Source of the DNA: Candidatus Woesearchaeota archaeon
Lineage (GTDB): Archaea > Nanobdellota > Nanobdellia > Woesearchaeales > ARS49
DNA length: 64,000 bases
Direction: 5' to 3'
NCBI GenBank assembly: GCA_018302815.1
Contig: JAGVZE010000007.1
Location: 186,001 to 250,000 of the forward strand
Each line of letters opens with the position of its first letter. Position 1 is the stretch's first letter. Positions 44,604 to 62,874 of this stretch are shown piece by piece. The translations under genes were made by a program, and so were the position numbers. The notes under the pieces are model-generated. The model was not told the DNA's origin and ran no database searches. It saw only the letters and a list, made by a program, of their open reading frames with translations.

Positions 44604-44665
44604 TTTAACTTCACTGGACAAACGCACAGGTGAACTATTTAAGCATTTATGCTGGCAATGCAGTA

Positions 44666-45436
44666 ATGAGTCCTGATGAGATAGCTGCAGAACTTTGCGG
44701 GATAATACTGGGGGATGGACATGTTCACAAGCATTCTAATCGCATCACTATATCTGGGAGTTCGGACGATCTCGTTTATTTCCGAATAAGAGTCATCCCA
44801 CTTTTTCAGAAACTTTTTCCATTTGTAAATCCAAGAATTGTGAAGCTTAAGAACAAGAACGCATATAATCTTGAAGTAGAAAATAAATCTATCATCAATT
44901 TTTTCATTGGGCGATTCGGTTTTAAGCGTGGGCCAAAGTATGAAGCACACATACCGCCAGACATTCTTTCGTCTCCTTCATTCATACCTCATTTTTTGCG
45001 CGGCTTATTTGATACGGATGGGTGCTTGAAATTCTCAAAGCAAGCCAGAGCTTATTCCTATTATCCGCGCGTCCGCATCGCGCTTGTTTCCTCTCCACTC
45101 ACACATCAACTCAGTTCTATTCTTACGCAGGCAGGTTTCACTTTCAGCAAAGGCACTCAGCAGAATCATGGATATGCGACTAAGAGATCGTTGGTGTGCT
45201 ATGAAATCTCGGGGAAACACGCGTTTGAAAAATGGATGCGCCTCATTCGACCTGCAAATCCAGTCCATGTGACAAAGTATGAATACTGGAAGAAGTTCGG
45301 ACACTATATACCGAAGATAACTTTTGCTGAACGCATTCGGCAAATAGGCCCGGGCGGATTCGAACCGCCGTCACAGGAGTCAGAGTCCCGTATACTTGAC
45401 CGCTATACGACGGGCCTGTTGGACATGGAACGCTAA
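44666..45436 (+). CDS. LAGLIDADG homing endonuclease, intact two-motif form
   Basis: A 256-residue protein with two LAGLIDADG-type motifs: ELCGIILGDGHV (about 8-19) and FLRGLFDTDGCL (about 114-125), giving a monomeric site-specific endonuclease. A TATA box (CTATTTAAGC) 27 nt before ATG 44666 supports this start over GTG 44630. The gene is convergent with tRNA-Gln(CTG): its reading frame runs straight into the tRNA gene (45346-45417, opposite strand) and ends beyond it, so its last ~30 residues are antisense of the tRNA. It is free-standing, not inside an intron or intein that I can see. Confidence 0.8.
   Translation: MSPDEIAAELCGIILGDGHVHKHSNRITISGSSDDLVYFRIRVIPLFQKLFPFVNPRIVKLKNKNAYNLEVENKSIINFFIGRFGFKRGPKYEAHIPPDILSSPSFIPHFLRGLFDTDGCLKFSKQARAYSYYPRVRIALVSSPLTHQLSSILTQAGFTFSKGTQQNHGYATKRSLVCYEISGKHAFEKWMRLIRPANPVHVTKYEYWKKFGHYIPKITFAERIRQIGPGGFEPPSQESESRILDRYTTGLLDMER
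45346..45417 (-). tRNA. tRNA-Gln (CTG)
   Basis: A 72-nt tRNA on the minus strand. Acceptor AGGCCCG/CGGGCCT is perfect, T-arm GGCGG/CCGCC with loop TTCGAAT is perfect, anticodon stem CGGGA/TCCTG holds the loop CTCTGAC (anticodon CTG). A TATA box (CTTTAAATA) lies about 25-35 nt upstream. No intron. The 3' end abuts the end of the homing endonuclease gene. Confidence 0.95.
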
Positions 45437-46788: not shown

Positions 46789-46833
46789 TCAGTGCACATT
46801 TCTGTGCAGGGACTTTGTCCTTAACTATTTCAT

Positions 46834-46905
46834 AGGCCCGACCGGATTCGAACCGGTGTCAACGGGTCCAAAGCCCGCTATACTTGACCGCTATACGACG
46901 GGCCT
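46834..46905 (-). tRNA. tRNA-Gln (TTG)
   Basis: A 72-nt tRNA on the minus strand: acceptor AGGCCCG/CGGGCCT, anticodon stem GCGGG/CCCGT with loop CTTTGGA (anticodon TTG), T-arm ACCGG/CCGGT with loop TTCGAAT. A TATA box (CTTTATAAG) lies about 27-33 nt upstream. It shares its acceptor and D-arm sequence with the tRNA-Gln(CTG) gene. Two degenerate 3'-end copies lie downstream. Confidence 0.95.
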
Positions 46906-55342: not shown

Positions 55343-55774
55343 ATGGAGTATCTCACAATCGATGAACTCAATCTTTGCTGGGAAAACCAGCTGAAAAAGG
55401 CGCATAGGATGTGTATGCCAAGAACGCTCATCGTTTGCGAGTTTCCACAAGATACTTCAACTCTCCAAGCGATCATATCAGACACGCCAGGATGCTTTGC
55501 TAAACACGGCTACGGCTCGACTATCGCGGTTCTTTTCTCAAACGAATTAGAGTATGCCTGCGTGATTGCAGAGATGGCAGCCCATTATTCCCGTAACGGC
55601 ATAGAAACAGCCTTATCTGCGGTGACATACAACGGAACCCAGAACGTCCCTTCAGATGACTTTGAAACCGCCGCTCGATTATCCCTCGAAAGTGCGTTCA
55701 AGAATATGCAAACCGCACGAAAGACAAAACAGCCGGTTCACTGCGATCTTTCAGAACTACTCCAGACTCAGTGA
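55343..55774 (+). CDS. Hypothetical protein, possibly degenerate GGDEF-like
   Basis: A 143-residue soluble protein. The middle (PRTLIVCEF...KHGYGSTIAVLFSNELEYACVIAEMAAHYSRNGIETALSAVTYN) follows the strand-helix-strand order of a GGDEF domain but has lost the GGDEF signature. It sits 45 nt downstream of the active cyclase and overlaps the convergent Hel308-like gene by 7 nt. It could be a partner or receptor; this is inference. TATA (GTTTAAATA) 27 nt upstream. Confidence 0.55.
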   Translation: MEYLTIDELNLCWENQLKKAHRMCMPRTLIVCEFPQDTSTLQAIISDTPGCFAKHGYGSTIAVLFSNELEYACVIAEMAAHYSRNGIETALSAVTYNGTQNVPSDDFETAARLSLESAFKNMQTARKTKQPVHCDLSELLQTQ

Positions 55775-57264
55775 GACTTCGGCTCAAATTCCCCGAAGAC
55801 GTCATCCTCGAGCTTCTCGCCAACTTGTTTTTTGAGAGATTTAGCGACAGAATCACCAACAATTCTTGCAAGCTTTTCCTGCGATGCGTTTTTTACATCG
55901 CCAACATCCTTTATCCCTTCCTTGAACAACTTTCTAGCACGCACGCGCCCAACCCCTTCAAATCGTATCAGCGCGAGCAGCTCCTCCTTTACTCCATACT
56001 TGAGCCGTAGCCTTGTCTTGACTATCTCTTTTAGCAACGGCTGCAAAGAAAGAAGCCTTGCAAGCTCATGGCAGGAATACAAAAGCCAATCAGCATTATC
56101 GATCTTCACGCGCATCTCGCCCGGCCTGCAATCATATTTTTCAAGCATCCACTCCTCATCCTTCTCGTCAATCCATTCCTCAAGCATCAGAGCAGTCTTG
56201 AACGCGTTTAGATACTCTTCATATTCAGGCTCGAACATGCTCGGCTCGGGTTTAAGCAAGTAGGATTCCAAAAGGTGATATTTTTCCTGCACATCATCAA
56301 ACTCTTTTTGCTTAACCCTCAAAAGAGGACGCATCTCGAGCGAATCGCAGACAAGATGAAGGAATGAAATCGACTTTAGTTTTATCGACTCTGAACGCAT
56401 CAAAGCATCGATGAAAATGTGCGCGGTGAGCGGGTCGAGATAAAGCTCGGCCACTCGTTTTCCAATGATAGTCGCGCGATACCCTTCCTGAATTTCCTGA
56501 ATGAATCCCCACTCCATCAACAGTTTAAGCATCCTGTCAATAATTTTTGCCATACGCTCCAAATCATTATACTGGAACGCCCAGAAAGTCCTGCTGAAAA
56601 AATCCAAAATGGTCTCTTTCGAATGAATTATCCTGCTGTTGATAAGCGAAAGAAGATAAGTTCGTAGAACAGGCTCTACCGCGAGCTTGCTGTAAATCTC
56701 CTCAGGAACGCCCCTAAGATATGTGTCTATGACATATTGTTTGTCAGTCTCTGTTTGAACAATAACGATAGCTTCGCCCACAGTGTCGTATTTTGGCCTT
56801 CCCGCGCGCCCTGCCATTTGAAGGAATTCCAGAACAGGAATCGGCGCCATACCATGCGGGCCAAAACGCTTCAAATCCCTTATTATCGCCCGATACGCAG
56901 GCAAGTCAAGACCTGCCGCGAGCGTCGGCGTGCACGCGATTATCTTGATAACACCCTCGCGAAAAGCGTTTTCTACCAATTCTTTTTGCTTCGCGTGCAA
57001 ACCCGAATGATGGAACGCGATACCCTTTTTCGCGCAAAGCGCAAGACGTTCGCATTGTTTTGTTGGTCTTGGAAGGATGGTTTTGATGTCTTCTGATAGC
57101 TGCGATAGGGCGTCTGATTTAAGCGGTGATTTCTTCGAGATATCCTCTGCTACTTTTTCAGCCGAACGCTTCGCATTGACAAATACTAACGCCTGTTTCT
57201 TGAGCTCAATAGTATCAAGCGCTAGGTTGACCACCGGATCCGGACTTTTTTGCAGCAGGTTCAT
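55768..57264 (-). CDS. hel308: Hel308-like helicase lacking the first motor domain
   Basis: About 498 residues that match Hel308 from the second RecA domain on: motif IV (ALVFVNAKRSAE), motif V (IIACTPTLAAGLDLPA), motif VI (QMAGRAGRP), then winged-helix, ratchet and helix-hairpin-helix (EGVGRVRARKLFKEG) parts. The whole N-terminal RecA1 domain with Walker A, DEAH and SAT motifs (about 200 residues) is missing. Upstream there is tRNA-Ile and mobile sequence. The frame opens at TTG 57327; ATG 57264 is the likely start. Split or truncated gene. Confidence 0.85.
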   Translation of the reverse strand: MNLLQKSPDPVVNLALDTIELKKQALVFVNAKRSAEKVAEDISKKSPLKSDALSQLSEDIKTILPRPTKQCERLALCAKKGIAFHHSGLHAKQKELVENAFREGVIKIIACTPTLAAGLDLPAYRAIIRDLKRFGPHGMAPIPVLEFLQMAGRAGRPKYDTVGEAIVIVQTETDKQYVIDTYLRGVPEEIYSKLAVEPVLRTYLLSLINSRIIHSKETILDFFSRTFWAFQYNDLERMAKIIDRMLKLLMEWGFIQEIQEGYRATIIGKRVAELYLDPLTAHIFIDALMRSESIKLKSISFLHLVCDSLEMRPLLRVKQKEFDDVQEKYHLLESYLLKPEPSMFEPEYEEYLNAFKTALMLEEWIDEKDEEWMLEKYDCRPGEMRVKIDNADWLLYSCHELARLLSLQPLLKEIVKTRLRLKYGVKEELLALIRFEGVGRVRARKLFKEGIKDVGDVKNASQEKLARIVGDSVAKSLKKQVGEKLEDDVFGEFEPKSH

Positions 57265-57375
57265 TTGTTGTTGGTTAACTTCAGTATAGCTTTTACCATA
57301 ACCTTTAAAAAGCAATCCACTCCACAACGAGTATCACGGCCCCGTAGCTTAGCCTGGTGGAGCATTCGACTGATA

Positions 57376-57394
57376 ACCCACAGATGGGCTAGAC
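57376..57394 (+). other. tRNA-Ile intron 1 (position 37/38)
   Basis: A 19-nt intron ACCCACAGATGGGCTAGAC. It folds as a hairpin (CCCA/TGGG) next to the 3-nt bulges TAA and ACA, with a weak central helix (CTGA/CTAG) as in a relaxed bulge-helix-bulge. Cutting after the second base in each bulge joins GATA to ATCGAA and restores the anticodon loop. Confidence 0.8.
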
Positions 57395-57400
57395 ATCGAA

Positions 57401-57419
57401 AGCGTCAAAACGCCGATTA
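57401..57419 (+). other. tRNA-Ile intron 2 (after position 43/44)
   Basis: A second 19-nt intron AGCGTCAAAACGCCGATTA. It has a GCGT/ACGC hairpin, 3-nt bulges AAA and TAA, and a perfect 4-bp central helix ATCG/CGAT. Cutting after the second base of each bulge joins TCGAA to AGGTC, giving a normal variable loop. It is in a non-canonical position. Confidence 0.8.
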
Positions 57420-57449
57420 AGGTCCCGTGTTCGAATCACGGCGGGGCCA

Positions 57450-57624
57450 TTTTTTTTAATACTCTGTGTGTACTATGCTGTGGCGGCGTGATTCGAAAAT
57501 CCAACCACTTCGTGGCTGTCCCTCAAGAAGTTCGCTTTTGCTCACTTCTCGAGGTCATCAGACCTTCGGTCCTCGACTTTAGAACGCTCGTTTTACTCAC
57601 GTATCTAAAGTCACAGCGGGGCCA
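57450..57624 (+). repeat. Hairpin-rich stretch and 3'-end remnant of tRNA-Ile
   Basis: An inverted T-arm CGTGATTCGAA (57487-57497, mirror of 57430-57440) opens the block. Then come stems CCAC/GTGG, CCTCAAGAAG/CTTCTCGAGG (one mismatch), GACC/GGTC and ACTTTAGA/TCTAAAGT. It ends with TCACAGCGGGGCCA (57611-57624), a copy of the tRNA-Ile 3' end. It matches the remnant pattern beside the other tRNA genes and marks the end of the homing endonuclease gene. Confidence 0.7.
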
Positions 57625-58014
57625 TTTATATTTCAAATCATCAAAAGTGCATTTAAACCCTAATTCTGTTATTACTTCATCAAGTTTGACTCTCAATATT
57701 TCACTTTCACTATTTGTCAGTCTTACCATGAACAAGTCTTTCCAACCATATTTTTTTCTTTCATGGACGTACATTTTCGGAGTGAGCTTCAGTTGTTTGA
57801 GTAAACCCATCAGTTGGGCCGCAAGGTTTTTAGAAATTGTCGACAAGATGAATTTCTTCTTCAAATATCCGTCACTTAACGCCAAACCAAGTATGAATCC
57901 TTCGTTAAACTTTGATGATTGCACATTTCTTAAACACACTGATTCCGATTTTAATCTTGAAAAAACGAGATACTTTTCGGGGAATTTGTAAATAAATTTA
58001 GAGTGAATTTTTAA
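57523..58014 (-). pseudogene. C-terminal half of a LAGLIDADG homing endonuclease split by an IS
   Basis: This fragment reads LKIHSKFIYKFPEKYLVF at its interrupted end and carries the second LAGLIDADG motif, EGFILGLALSDGYL. No ATG precedes the frame. It joins in frame to the N-terminal fragment (58801-59211) when the intervening 786 bp is removed. Its far end runs through the tRNA-Ile 3'-end remnant, so the endonuclease gene converges on that tRNA as in the tRNA-Gln(CTG) case. Confidence 0.75.
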
Positions 58015-58800
58015 TTAGTTTGCCAAGAATTCGTCAGGGTCTGGAGCGTAGCGGAAGACCTGACGATGAATTGGCATAAAGCGTAAGTATTGGTTGCTAT
58101 TTCTTGTTACTGGCGCTGTCAAAGAGACTGGTAGGAAGCACACCAAACGCAACAGTGTCGCCCTCTGACCACTTTTCGTAAAGCGGTGAGGGTTCGAGCC
58201 AACCCGGCGAGCAGCGATGATGTGCTTCTTTTGAACCTTTTCTTTATAGCGTGAGCTATAAAAAACTTTCTGGAGATGATTTTTATGACGAGAAATGATA
58301 CGAGAAATAACTGGTTAGACTTTATGTTTGTGACGAAATGCAGGTACAACTGTTTTGGAAAGCAGTCGCACATTGACACGTGCACTGCGGCATTTCGCGA
58401 ACTCGAAGCATTCGGCTTTGAGTTCGGAGTGTTTGGTTTTGGCGGGACGCATGTGCATTTTCAGGCGAATGTGCCAAAGAAATACGCAGTACAGGTCGCG
58501 GAAATCATGTTGAAGTCGCGCTCAGCACAAAGGATGTTCGAAAAACATCCAGGTTTTCGCAAGCGTTACCCACGAGGAAGTTTCTGGAGCGGATACGAAT
58601 ACCACGAATCGATTGGTCGCAAAGACTTTGCAGAATCAACAGAGTACATTCTTGACCAAGAACACCACCACAATGTCAAAGTAATTGACGACCGACAACA
58701 AAAACTAAACGCCTTCACCGCCGAGCGAGATACGGCAAGCCCCGCAAGGGCTTGACGAGAAGCGAAGGCGGAAAGGGGTCATAGGGGGTCGCACCCCCTA
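58015..58800 (+). mobile_element. IS200/IS605-type insertion sequence
   Basis: A segment of about 786 bp with a single transposase gene. Structured ends: an imperfect 56-nt hairpin at 58021-58076 (TGCCAA...TTGGCA outer, CGTCAGG...CCTGACG inner), and a perfect 8-bp stem TAGGGGGT/ACCCCCTA at 58782-58800. A further TTTATAGC/GCTATAAA hairpin lies before the gene. The endpoints are inferred from where the split homing endonuclease frame rejoins (GAATTTTTAA to TTTCATAC). No direct repeat flanks it, as expected of this family. Confidence 0.7.
58285..58755 (+). CDS. tnpA: IS200/IS605 TnpA transposase (Y1-type)
   Basis: A 156-residue HUH transposase. The HUH motif is His56-Val57-His58 (GTHVHFQANVP) and the catalytic tyrosine is Tyr121 (ESTEYILDQEHHH). 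The helix KSRSAQRMFEKHPGFRKRY and SFWSGYEYHES are typical. It would act as a dimer on single-stranded hairpin ends. ATG 58285 has GGAG upstream. No tnpB gene accompanies it. Confidence 0.93.
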   Translation: MTRNDTRNNWLDFMFVTKCRYNCFGKQSHIDTCTAAFRELEAFGFEFGVFGFGGTHVHFQANVPKKYAVQVAEIMLKSRSAQRMFEKHPGFRKRYPRGSFWSGYEYHESIGRKDFAESTEYILDQEHHHNVKVIDDRQQKLNAFTAERDTASPARA

Positions 58801-59211
58801 TTTCATACTCGCTTGATTACCTTGATTGCTATCATGGTAGAGTTTGACCTCTTTCTTGAATAGGTTATTGATTATTTCTTTACAAAATACAATTAGAGTC
58901 TCATTCCTGCGGTCGAGATGAATTTTCGTGATGAAACCATTATTATGGTATCTCGAACCGTCTCCTGCCCAAAGACCGACATACGTTCCTATGAGCAGCT
59001 CGTTTCCATATGTTTGAGTTATTTTCGTTTTTTTATTCAGAATGCCTGTTTTGGATAGCTTATACCAAAGTGTAGATATTGGAATTCCCGTAATTTCGCT
59101 CACTTTTCGAAGAGAAGGGGTTTTTTCATAAAGTGCAGTAAGCATAATCATTCGGACAAAAGTCTTATTTTTAAACCTCGCCCGGGTATTTGTCCTTTGT
59201 GTCCTGTGCAT
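58801..59211 (-). pseudogene. N-terminal half of the split LAGLIDADG homing endonuclease
   Basis: This 137-codon fragment has a helix-turn-helix (SLRKVSEITGIPISTLWYKL) and the first LAGLIDADG motif (LLIGTYVGLWAGDGSRY). It ends SMK followed by TAG formed by the IS end. Restored to the fragment at 57523 it gives one protein with two motifs and HTH start. The insertion therefore inactivated a homing endonuclease. Confidence 0.72.
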
Positions 59212-59274: not shown

Positions 59275-62200
59275 TTGAGCGAAAGAGTCATACGGATAGA
59301 TGCAACAGTTCTGGTATTCGCAGTACTGTTAGTCGTAGCGACAGGCATGCTATTCCTTAGTACAACCCCTGATTCGCCTACGGGAAATCTGGTCATACCG
59401 CCCGCAGCTCCAATGGACTGTCAGTTTGTAGCAGGCACAAGCTGCCCAGGCTTATTCACAAAGATATATGCGATGAGCAATGGAACAAACGCTCACGCGG
59501 AACTTCCAAATGAGACAAATTACGCCGTCAGCGTATGCTGCAGAGATACAACTGCAAGCAATGTCATTAGCACGACATCAGGTCCTGTCGCGCTCCATCT
59601 GAGCAATTTCACGAACGCTCATGCCGAAAGATTCCTCAACACCAACTATAACGTATCAGTATTCTTCAGCTCAGCACCAAACCAAGTGTTCTGTCTCAAT
59701 GTCGCGAACGGAAGCGGCACGTGTCCTGCTCTATACGGCTGTCTAGGAACGCTTTCAAATGAAACCAATGCCCATGTTGCCAATTGCAGCGCAGGCTCTG
59801 CGTACAATATAACTGTCTGTTGCAGCTTCGGAGGATTAATCACTGCATACTTCCATCCGGACCTCTCGTCAGGAAACCTTCTTAACGCGAATGGAAGCAT
59901 AAACGGCACGCTGATCGATAATGAAACGAGCTATCTTACCCAAACAATAACATATCTCAACTCAACAACGAACCGAAGGTTCCTTCGTTTCGAAGGATTC
60001 TTCAATCAAAGCGATGTCGACGCATCACTTCTTTTAATTCAATTCAATGATACTGCCGTTGCGATAAATACAAGCGGAGTAACAGGAGATAGCACAAACC
60101 ACAGCCTTTTCTTGCCCAGAGACACCGTATCAAATCTGGGAGTGCGCGTTTGCCCTCAATCGTTAAATTTGACAGTTACAAATCAGACGTGCACTAATGG
60201 ACTTGAATATTACGGACCGTTCCCGCAGACTATCAGTAATTTTACGGTTCTATTCGATGGCGGAGAATACCGCATCGACAACCTCACAAGCACAGGAGCA
60301 ATCCTGCTCATCATAGTTAACAGTACAATACTTGATAGCAATCTGACTAACAGCTCGGTTTTCAACAGCACAATCATCAATAGCACGCTCAATAATTCTC
60401 AGGTGAACATAAGCAACATCACCAATTCAACAATAATCAATTCCACAATTGTGAACTCGAGCAAGATAAACAGCACGATAATCAACAGCACAGTCATCAA
60501 CTCAACCAATTATCTATGCAACATGTCTGTCTCTACAGAAATAAACAGCCAGTGCACACAAAGCAATTCCTCAAACAGCAGCCTATCTGGAAGCAATCTT
60601 ACAAATTCATCTTCAGTCAACAGCACGATAATAGATTCGAACAAGATAAACAGCACGATGCACAATAGCACGATAACCCGTTCGACGAATATGAACTGCA
60701 CAATCTCGGGGTCAACTGAAAGCGGTTCGCTCTGCATCAATTCAAACGTGACCAATTCGACACTAGTCGATCTTACCGTCATAAACGCGAGCATAATCAA
60801 CGGATTCTGCAACAGCGGAACAATCGTGTTCCGCGGAAGTAATTTCCCCTGCCCAATCGCACTATTCGAATTCTTGCCAATGCAGACAACCACAGACAAG
60901 ACAGATTCACGCGATCCAGTCGCGGTCAGCGATACGTTCACTTATACAATCACTTTAACGAACAACGACAATGCGACCGCATTCAACGTGACTGTGAACG
61001 ACACATATCCTGCAGGAGTGACCTTCATCACGAGCAGCCCGCCTGCCACAGTAGGCGACAACTTCTTCGCACTTGGCAACATTACTGTCGGACAAACGGC
61101 CACAATCAACATAACAGTATTAGTTAACTCAGTACCCAATGGAACCGTGCTAGTAAACGATTATGTTCTGACTCACGTGCGCGGTTCAGGAATAGACTTT
61201 AACATAACAAACAGCACCACGACAACCGTGTTCGCGCTGCCTAATGTCACGACCAACAAGACCGATAATATCGACCCCATAATCAAAGGTCAATTGTTAA
61301 ATTATACGATATTTATAACAAACGATGGCGAAGAAGCAGCGTACAACACGACAGTCATAGAGACGTATCCAGCCGGCACGAGCTTTGTCAACTCAACAAT
61401 ATCACCTTCAAGCGGAAACAACATTTTCCTAATAGGCAACATATCGCCAAATGAGACAGCAAATATCACGATAACTCTTCTAGTGAACACAAGCGTTGCA
61501 AACAATACCGTGATAAACAATACGTACGAGGTAAATTTCACAGGATTCCTTGGCAACCAGCTAAGCGTTAGCAATTTAACTAATACAACAGTACTAGGAT
61601 TCCCGGACCTGATCATAAGCAAGACTGACAGCCCTGATCCAGTCACATTCGGAGGAACGCTTGTTTACACAATCAACGTTTTGAACAATGGCGATGAGAC
61701 CGCCAACAACACACTCGTAGCCGACATTTTTCCGGCAAACGTGAGCTATGTAAGCTCAAGCATAGCTCCATTGGATGCCAACAGCACGTACGACCTTGGC
61801 AACCTTGTTTCGGGACAATCTGTTAGCTTCACAATAACAGTTCTTGCGCCCACAATCACCAGCACAATCGTCAATTCAATCAATGTCAGCTTCATAAACG
61901 CGACCGGCGTCAACACAACCATCAATACCTCACAGGCTACTTTAGTAGTGCCGCCAAGCACCGGACAAGGAGGCGGAAGCAACTCAATGCAGCACGGACA
62001 AATATACAGCGGTCCAAGATCTTATGGACTGGATGGAGACAGCATACTAACTCCTTTGCTCTCACGGCTAGATAGCGTGCAGTTCAGCATGCAAGATGGA
62101 CTTCATACACTCACCGTTCTAGATGTATCGGCCAGCAAAGCGGTCGTCAGCGTGCAAAGCGCGCTTCAACAATTCGATATACTGCCTGACAAAACGCAAA

Positions 62201-62874
62201 CAATCGATCTTACTGGCGATGGAAAACTAGACCTTCGCGTGCGCATAGTCAAAATAGTACAAGGACAACAAGTTCAGCTGTTAATAGAGAAGATCAAAAC
62301 ACCCGTGACTATTGCTCAGCCAAGTCCAGTGGTCGAAGAAGAAATCGTTCCAACTTTGCAAGAACCAGCGCATCAAGAACCAGCATACGTCGGAGACGCA
62401 TACCAAACACCAATGCAGGAAAAACTAGCCAGAAACGAATCACGCAAATCCACGGGATTCCTTCTCACAGCAGTTATAATCTTCATAGCTCTTGCAATCC
62501 TTGCCACGATGGTTTGGAGCAGAAGACGCGGCGCAAAAGAAGAGACTGAAGCAGTACGGCCAGAACAACAATTTGTTCCTCCTTTAGTACCTGAACCAGA
62601 ATCAAATTACGTTCCAGAACCTGTTGTCGAGCATTTAGAAGAACCAGTTGAAGAGATAGAAATCGTGCACGAACCGAGCGTAAAAGAAGCCAAAGAACCA
62701 AAAGTTCCTAAACAGCCTAAAGCTCCAAAACAGACCAAGCCAAAAGCAATCAAAAAGACCAAAGAACAAGTATTGGCGGAAAAAGAAGAGCTCGCGCGAA
62801 AAAGACGAATGGCAGAGATAAAAGCGCGCATCAAGAAAGAAACAGCGAAAAGATTGCATAGACGGATAAACTGA
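59275..62874 (+). CDS. Giant signal-anchored surface protein with NST pentapeptides and DUF11 domains
   Basis: A 1199-residue protein. It has an N-terminal hydrophobic anchor (about 10-30), a beta-rich Cys region with repeats of the GTNAHAELPNETNY type, a pentapeptide ladder (about 348-509), three DUF11-like Ig-fold domains (about 540-890, each YTITLTNN...PAGVTF), a spacer, a C-terminal transmembrane helix (about 1061-1078) and a Lys-rich cytoplasmic tail with PKQPKAPKQTKPKA. TTG start with GAGGG ahead. An adhesin or S-layer-like protein. Confidence 0.85.
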   Translation: MSERVIRIDATVLVFAVLLVVATGMLFLSTTPDSPTGNLVIPPAAPMDCQFVAGTSCPGLFTKIYAMSNGTNAHAELPNETNYAVSVCCRDTTASNVISTTSGPVALHLSNFTNAHAERFLNTNYNVSVFFSSAPNQVFCLNVANGSGTCPALYGCLGTLSNETNAHVANCSAGSAYNITVCCSFGGLITAYFHPDLSSGNLLNANGSINGTLIDNETSYLTQTITYLNSTTNRRFLRFEGFFNQSDVDASLLLIQFNDTAVAINTSGVTGDSTNHSLFLPRDTVSNLGVRVCPQSLNLTVTNQTCTNGLEYYGPFPQTISNFTVLFDGGEYRIDNLTSTGAILLIIVNSTILDSNLTNSSVFNSTIINSTLNNSQVNISNITNSTIINSTIVNSSKINSTIINSTVINSTNYLCNMSVSTEINSQCTQSNSSNSSLSGSNLTNSSSVNSTIIDSNKINSTMHNSTITRSTNMNCTISGSTESGSLCINSNVTNSTLVDLTVINASIINGFCNSGTIVFRGSNFPCPIALFEFLPMQTTTDKTDSRDPVAVSDTFTYTITLTNNDNATAFNVTVNDTYPAGVTFITSSPPATVGDNFFALGNITVGQTATINITVLVNSVPNGTVLVNDYVLTHVRGSGIDFNITNSTTTTVFALPNVTTNKTDNIDPIIKGQLLNYTIFITNDGEEAAYNTTVIETYPAGTSFVNSTISPSSGNNIFLIGNISPNETANITITLLVNTSVANNTVINNTYEVNFTGFLGNQLSVSNLTNTTVLGFPDLIISKTDSPDPVTFGGTLVYTINVLNNGDETANNTLVADIFPANVSYVSSSIAPLDANSTYDLGNLVSGQSVSFTITVLAPTITSTIVNSINVSFINATGVNTTINTSQATLVVPPSTGQGGGSNSMQHGQIYSGPRSYGLDGDSILTPLLSRLDSVQFSMQDGLHTLTVLDVSASKAVVSVQSALQQFDILPDKTQTIDLTGDGKLDLRVRIVKIVQGQQVQLLIEKIKTPVTIAQPSPVVEEEIVPTLQEPAHQEPAYVGDAYQTPMQEKLARNESRKSTGFLLTAVIIFIALAILATMVWSRRRGAKEETEAVRPEQQFVPPLVPEPESNYVPEPVVEHLEEPVEEIEIVHEPSVKEAKEPKVPKQPKAPKQTKPKAIKKTKEQVLAEKEELARKRRMAEIKARIKKETAKRLHRRIN
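60316..60801 (+). repeat. NST-rich pentapeptide repeats in the surface protein
   Basis: In the reading frame of the surface protein (residues about 348-509) the 5-residue unit is x-N-S-T-(I/V), for example INSTIINSTVINST. Each unit contains an Asn-x-Ser/Thr sequon, so the array is a ladder of potential N-glycosylation sites. Two Cys-containing interruptions (NYLCNMSV, NMNCTISG) split it. Confidence 0.8.

Follow-up and report, generated by a model that had tools for sequence, protein, structure and literature searches.

The LAGLIDADG gene that overlaps tRNA-Gln(CTG) in the analysed stretch of 64,000 nucleotides (the window) is not a local oddity: it belongs to a large family of endonuclease genes that stand free in the genomes of DPANN archaea. 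Within one clade of this family, the constant features are the identity of the adjoining tRNA and the tight linkage to it, not the junction between the two genes. We propose, as the probable explanation, that these genes encode selfish endonucleases that cut one particular tRNA gene and spread beside it by intronless or collaborative homing.

Intact endonuclease gene at tRNA-Gln(CTG)

The intact gene and its surroundings contain the following features.

44612..44620, + strand: promoter box CACTGGACA, 54 bp before start 44666, with a TATTTAA box at about 44636
44666..45343, + strand: free-standing two-motif LAGLIDADG endonuclease core, 226 amino acids (Pfam LAGLIDADG_3, PDB profile match, kept catalytic Asp columns)
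45344..45436, + strand: C-terminal ORF extension, antisense of tRNA-Gln (sequence; homologue alignments stop at residue 224)
45345..45417, - strand: tRNA-Gln(CTG), intronless, with D-arm variant GTCGTATAGCGG
46833..46905, - strand: tRNA-Gln(TTG), intronless, with a D-arm variant identical to that of tRNA-Gln(CTG)

A preceding sequence-only reading described an intact two-motif gene at 44666-45436 that runs antisense into tRNA-Gln(CTG), and the ORF, the tRNA coordinates and the motifs were all confirmed. The endonuclease ORF (44630/44666-45436, + strand) spans the whole tRNA in antisense: the tRNA sequence starts at codon 227 of 256, and residues 227-256 are its antisense translation, which matches unrelated tRNA-Gln genes in tblastn. 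Because homologues align to residue 224 only, this 30-residue tail is a read-through of the tRNA and not a part of the enzyme.

The LAGLIDADG_3 domain is recognized in the intact gene by Pfam (E 3e-9), both motifs (LCGIILGDG and LRGLFDTDG) are intact, and D17 and D118 are invariant or nearly so among 30 relatives. Judged by these motifs and by similarity, the window protein is an I-DmoI-like, monomeric two-motif LAGLIDADG homing endonuclease. It shares the two-motif architecture and a PDB profile match (E 4e-10) with the I-DmoI type of archaeal rRNA-intron endonucleases, and archaeal intein endonucleases were matched as well. In contrast to the I-DmoI type, the gene lies outside an intron and overlaps its host gene, which is a tRNA gene rather than an rRNA gene. 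A location within a long tRNA intron was also considered and rejected, as a long-intron ARAGORN search returned only artefacts composed of two tRNA pieces. The subset of neighbouring ORFs that was scanned encodes NUDIX, PAP2, methyltransferase and ribosomal S15 proteins and two proteins without a match; no integrase was found among them.

Split endonuclease gene at tRNA-Ile(GAT)

A second family gene in the window is interrupted by a transposase.

About 57338-57449, + strand: tRNA-Ile(GAT) with intron(s) (Rfam RF00005, G000:C26:243338-243449)
57523-57939 or 57990, - strand: C-terminal half of the split LAGLIDADG gene with the second motif (Pfam LAGLIDADG_3, E 7e-7)
57611..57625, + strand: short copy of the tRNA-Ile 3' end, 14/15 bases, within a palindromic stretch
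58276..58755, + strand: IS200-like Y1 transposase interrupting the LAGLIDADG gene (Pfam Y1_Tnp, E 5.6e-11)
58798..59211, - strand: N-terminal half of the split gene with an HTH-like part and the first motif (Pfam LAGLIDADG_3, E 0.026)
59200..59208, - strand: CACAGGACA, a promoter box with one mismatch, 57 bp before the likely start 59151

The tRNA-Ile(GAT) gene was missed by ARAGORN because of its introns. The split gene had been read as ending in the copy of the tRNA-Ile 3' end. The copy is real but short (its score was equalled in 0 of 400 shuffles, although a separate set of 300 shuffles gave a best score of 14), and, as it lies in a palindromic stretch, it may have another origin. The ORF does not end there but continues to 57523. 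The surrounding region holds a stretch with several hairpins near the Y1 transposase (57476-57630, fold about -45.6 kcal/mol), an archaeal helicase with Hel308-like domains directly upstream of tRNA-Ile (55768-57327), and a 1199-residue, Asn/Ser-rich, surface-like protein with DUF11 repeats that directly adjoins the split gene (59275-62874).

Linkage to tRNA genes across DPANN archaea

In the 1.55-Mb genome that contains the window, which has 41 Rfam tRNAs, six of the seven free-standing family genes are no more than about 200 bp away from a tRNA gene (chance P about 8e-9); the adjoining tRNAs, some of them identified by eye, are Gln, Gly, Ala, Ile, Phe and iMet. Relatives were collected by a genome search, which gave matches in 35 of 57 genomes, and by a contig search, which gave 80 loci from Woesearchaeota, Pacearchaeota, Nanoarchaeota, Aenigmatarchaeota, Diapherotrites, Altiarchaeales and others, with some bins labelled bacteria or Thaumarchaeota that may be mis-binned. 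By design, the queries contained no tRNA sequence, although residues encoded by a tRNA stand at the end of a few rows in the query alignment.

An adjacent tRNA could be assigned in 92 of 106 non-redundant DPANN loci, a count that is uncorrected for phylogeny and in which the labels of intron-rich tRNAs were given partly by eye, a few of them after similar endonucleases had been seen. The view that these genes stand outside introns and are anchored at tRNA genes thus holds well beyond the window. Many tRNAs with introns were missed by ARAGORN, and its conservative calls put the start of an intronless tRNA in the first 200 bp behind the gene at 32 of 103 loci, compared with nine across all bins between 200 and 2000 bp. 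Where both genes share a strand, the endonuclease stop codon is often located inside the tRNA at position 10 or 15 (TAG/TAA of the box A region); where they lie on opposite strands, the protein C-terminus is often encoded by the antisense of the tRNA 3' sequence. Nearly all family junctions in the DPANN loci contain tRNA sequence, as the sequence-only reading had expected.

LAGLIDADG domains also occur in other settings. One family member (L101) has no tRNA and lies in an open frame beside a thiolase-like gene, where it is probably an intein or an in-gene insertion. Those at G000:C21:98275-98808 lie within an open frame of 1263 residues and probably belong to an intein.

Endonuclease lineage and gene geometry

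Endonuclease lineage follows tRNA identity. On a tree of 106 proteins, whose tRNA labels were in part assigned by eye, the label changes 27 times; the minimum is 17, the mean of shuffled labels is 68.3, and none of 200 shuffles was as low. All 13 Arg(TCG) loci fall into one supported group, and 12 tRNA-Gln loci, comprising the window gene and 11 others, form another with a support of 99. The placement of the gene varies inside this Gln clade: it is downstream and antisense in the window, downstream and sense most often, and upstream and divergent in three loci (L067, L071 and L072).

Could such a pattern arise if the enzymes have their targets elsewhere, tRNA flanks are merely tolerated and tRNA identity is kept by descent of the locus? 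Flanks of tRNA genes are common insertion places for mobile DNA in general, and inheritance of the locus alone could yield the clustering of labels. However, the gene switches side and strand at the same tRNA, unlike the inheritance of one locus, and it is associated with one rare intron site rather than with introns overall (see below), so that we regard such hitch-hiking as unlikely.

The changes of side and orientation inside one clade also rule out a fixed insertion at the tRNA 3' end, which the sequence-only reading had inferred. Since geometry varies whereas the tRNA and the linkage are constant, cutting within the tRNA followed by co-conversion fits better than integrase-like insertion.

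tRNA fragments beside the gene

In five loci, a piece of the tRNA is repeated directly on the far side of the endonuclease gene, with one complete tRNA present. The repeat scores range from 14 to 29 and the best shuffled score is 13, which makes the weakest locus marginal. It is more often the 5' part of the tRNA that is duplicated, and most loci have no repeat. At one locus (L095, archaeon GW2011_AR20), the tRNA-Ser(GCT) fragment, a 5' piece, extends beyond the intron site and has no intron there, and the full copy has the intron. Such a pattern is to be expected when breakage of an intron-free tRNA is followed by its replacement with an intron-bearing copy that arrived with the endonuclease.

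These fragments bear on the proposal that the endonuclease recognizes the 3' part of the tRNA, inserts at the 3' end and rebuilds it in the manner of an integrase-borne element. Both window genes converge on tRNA 3' ends, and direct repeats of tRNA fragments flank the gene in five relatives, which agrees with rebuilding of a tRNA end. However, such a repeat is absent around the intact gene of the window and at most other loci, the 5' part is the commoner fragment, the majority of the genes share a strand with the tRNA and adjoin its 5' end, side and orientation vary within one tRNA-specific clade, and an integrase was not found among the neighbours examined. Insertion at the 3' end is therefore improbable as a general route.

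Association with specific intron sites

The tRNA-Gln(TTG) genes of 193 genomes were sampled with a pattern that ignored the 5' side, the T-arm and the stretch behind the anticodon as possible intron places, and splice sites were located by alignment with intronless copies, with a possible error of a base or two. An intron near position 10/11 is rare in this sample (nine genes). It is found in 5 of 5 genes with an adjacent endonuclease and in 4 of 103 without one (p 1.1e-6); the five cases represent five families, and the statistics are uncorrected for shared ancestry. In iMet, the 53/54 intron is present in 4 of 5 tRNAs with the iMet-A gene versus 1 of 47 without it (p 9e-5), and an intron near 29/30 in 2 of 2 with the iMet-B gene versus 4 of 50 (p 0.01). 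The respective site is thus free of an intron in 99 of 103 gene-free tRNA-Gln and 46 of 47 gene-free iMet genes. The intron without the gene in four tRNA-Gln and one iMet could reflect loss of the endonuclease gene. One intronless iMet (L268) is accompanied by a weak and distant endonuclease match.

The association does not extend to introns in general, which were considered as the link and rejected: tRNA-Gln introns at 37/38 and in the T-loop are common without the gene, and 10/11 alone associates. In the tRNA-Gln(TTG) sample, no tRNA whose only intron lay at 37/38 or in the T-loop was accompanied by the gene. T-loop introns of about 115-156 nt occur in three tRNA-Gln genes without an endonuclease gene (L145, L157 and L179).

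The frequency of introns in the D-arm, in the T-loop or at 10/11 of many adjoining tRNAs may also bring to mind a maturase, that is, a protein that binds the precursor tRNA and aids the splicing of unusually placed introns, and some LAGLIDADG proteins are indeed maturases. However, many adjoining tRNAs, including that of the window, are intronless, introns in the T-loop and at other unusual places often occur where the gene is absent, and both catalytic Asp positions are kept. A maturase role is accordingly very unlikely.

The presence of a rare intron at one fixed spot in two lineages points to tRNA genes without an intron as the targets through which the endonucleases spread. Introns appear to protect some lineages, not all: none is found at tRNA-Gln(CTG) of the window, at the Gly and Ala loci of the same genome or at most loci of the Thr lineage, and resistance by introns is thus not the whole story. 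For the Thr lineage, a substitution at T-loop position 59 failed as an explanation of resistance because gene-free tRNA-Thr genes also vary there.

Proposed homing mechanism

In the homing mechanism that we propose, each lineage would attack one tRNA gene, and its endonuclease gene would be fused to that tRNA or lie within about 100 bp of it. On meeting a susceptible allele of the tRNA in another genome, the enzyme would cut it, and repair templated by the donor would introduce a resistant tRNA together with the linked endonuclease gene, as in intronless homing. In the Gln and iMet lineages, the cut would be expected near 10/11 and at 53/54, respectively; an intron in the target would confer resistance, and intron and endonuclease would travel together, as in collaborative homing. 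The introns in the target tRNAs are presumably of the archaeal bulge-helix-bulge type. The truncated tRNA pieces on the far side would result from imperfect repair that is confined to one side.

The tRNA-Gln of the window has no intron, and its D-arm variant GTCGTATAG at the expected site, 10/11, may act as resistance instead. Several family relatives carry the same variant, which rules it out as a private resistance allele of the window.

Relation to known systems and significance

SegB of phage T4 belongs to a different enzyme family, GIY-YIG, and we know of no link between SegB and introns. SegB (PMC2330249, cited in PMC10448857) resembles the present genes as a free-standing endonuclease linked to the inheritance of tRNA genes and differs from them in its location in a phage tRNA cluster.

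A closer parallel is provided by the collaborative homing of T7-like phages and a cyanophage, in which a free-standing endonuclease gene lies beside an intron-bearing essential gene and cutting of the sequence into which the intron inserts introduces the intron and the endonuclease gene together (PMC10448857). Likewise, in the Gln(TTG) and iMet-A lineages, the endonuclease gene adjoins the intron-bearing gene instead of residing inside it. The archaeal case differs from this phage system (PMC10448857) in its chromosomal setting, tRNA targets, LAGLIDADG enzymes, short archaeal introns free of ribozymes and many lineages, each with a tRNA of its own; cleavage is what we infer here.

Mobile DNA at archaeal tRNA genes leaves tRNA fragments and has been tied to intron gain in an integration model (PMC3293823). 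The present loci resemble such elements in these respects. In contrast to tRNA-integrating elements of the SSV or pNOB8 type, they consist of a single endonuclease gene whose geometry is not fixed to the tRNA end, and the window gene has neither an integrase among its scanned neighbours nor tRNA-end repeats at both borders.

A paper on intron transposition describes the way in which tRNA introns of archaea move as unknown (PMC4090602), and the processes behind the disruption of tRNA genes are described as unidentified (PMC3293823). Selfish endonucleases tied to single tRNA genes and to clade-specific intron sites would offer a concrete and testable driver of intron movement. The family would also account for antisense ORFs that end in tRNA sequence, for gaps in the tRNA annotation of DPANN genomes and for the tRNA fragments that these genomes contain. 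It is, in addition, a source of many natural enzymes whose predicted targets are highly conserved. No description of a tRNA-anchored endonuclease family was found in the open-access papers searched.

Promoter box shared with DNA-repair genes

The box CACTGGACA, followed by a TATA-like box, is positioned 45-60 bp upstream of where the free-standing endonuclease genes of this genome probably start, with one mismatch at the split gene and an uncertain start for the C18 gene. It also precedes the genes for UvrB, an RNase H-like exonuclease, DinB, Hjc and a Bro-N protein (G000 contigs C6:43243, C11:13081, C17:82247, C21:20184 and C26:40452), at a distance of about 103 bp for Hjc and about 45-60 bp otherwise; we take the Bro-N protein to be DinD-like. 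Among 104 endonuclease loci, the exact box occurs within 250 bp upstream in 39 and on the opposite strand once. The dinB box recurs, exactly or with one mismatch, at -51/-52 in 3 of 3 relatives. The box upstream of hjc was rejected as a conserved regulon feature, as, apart from this genome, just one close relative has it.

The shared box suggests that the endonucleases may be expressed under DNA damage, when recombination repair would be available, and the genes behind it possibly form an SOS-like regulon in a DPANN archaeon. As a tentative extension, which we hold to be conceivable but short of probable, a damage-inducible network of tRNA-targeting endonucleases would spread tRNA introns, including those at non-canonical sites, by collaborative homing and thereby provide the mechanism of archaeal tRNA intron gain that has been missing.

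The box, in part as the tandem CACTGGACACTGGACA, occurs at six further positions (G000 C24:161014, C13:10710, C26:114798, C20:41752, C22:70913 and C24:212113), behind which lie genes with no or a very weak Pfam match, or no clear ORF. These genes are candidates for new repair or mobile genes.
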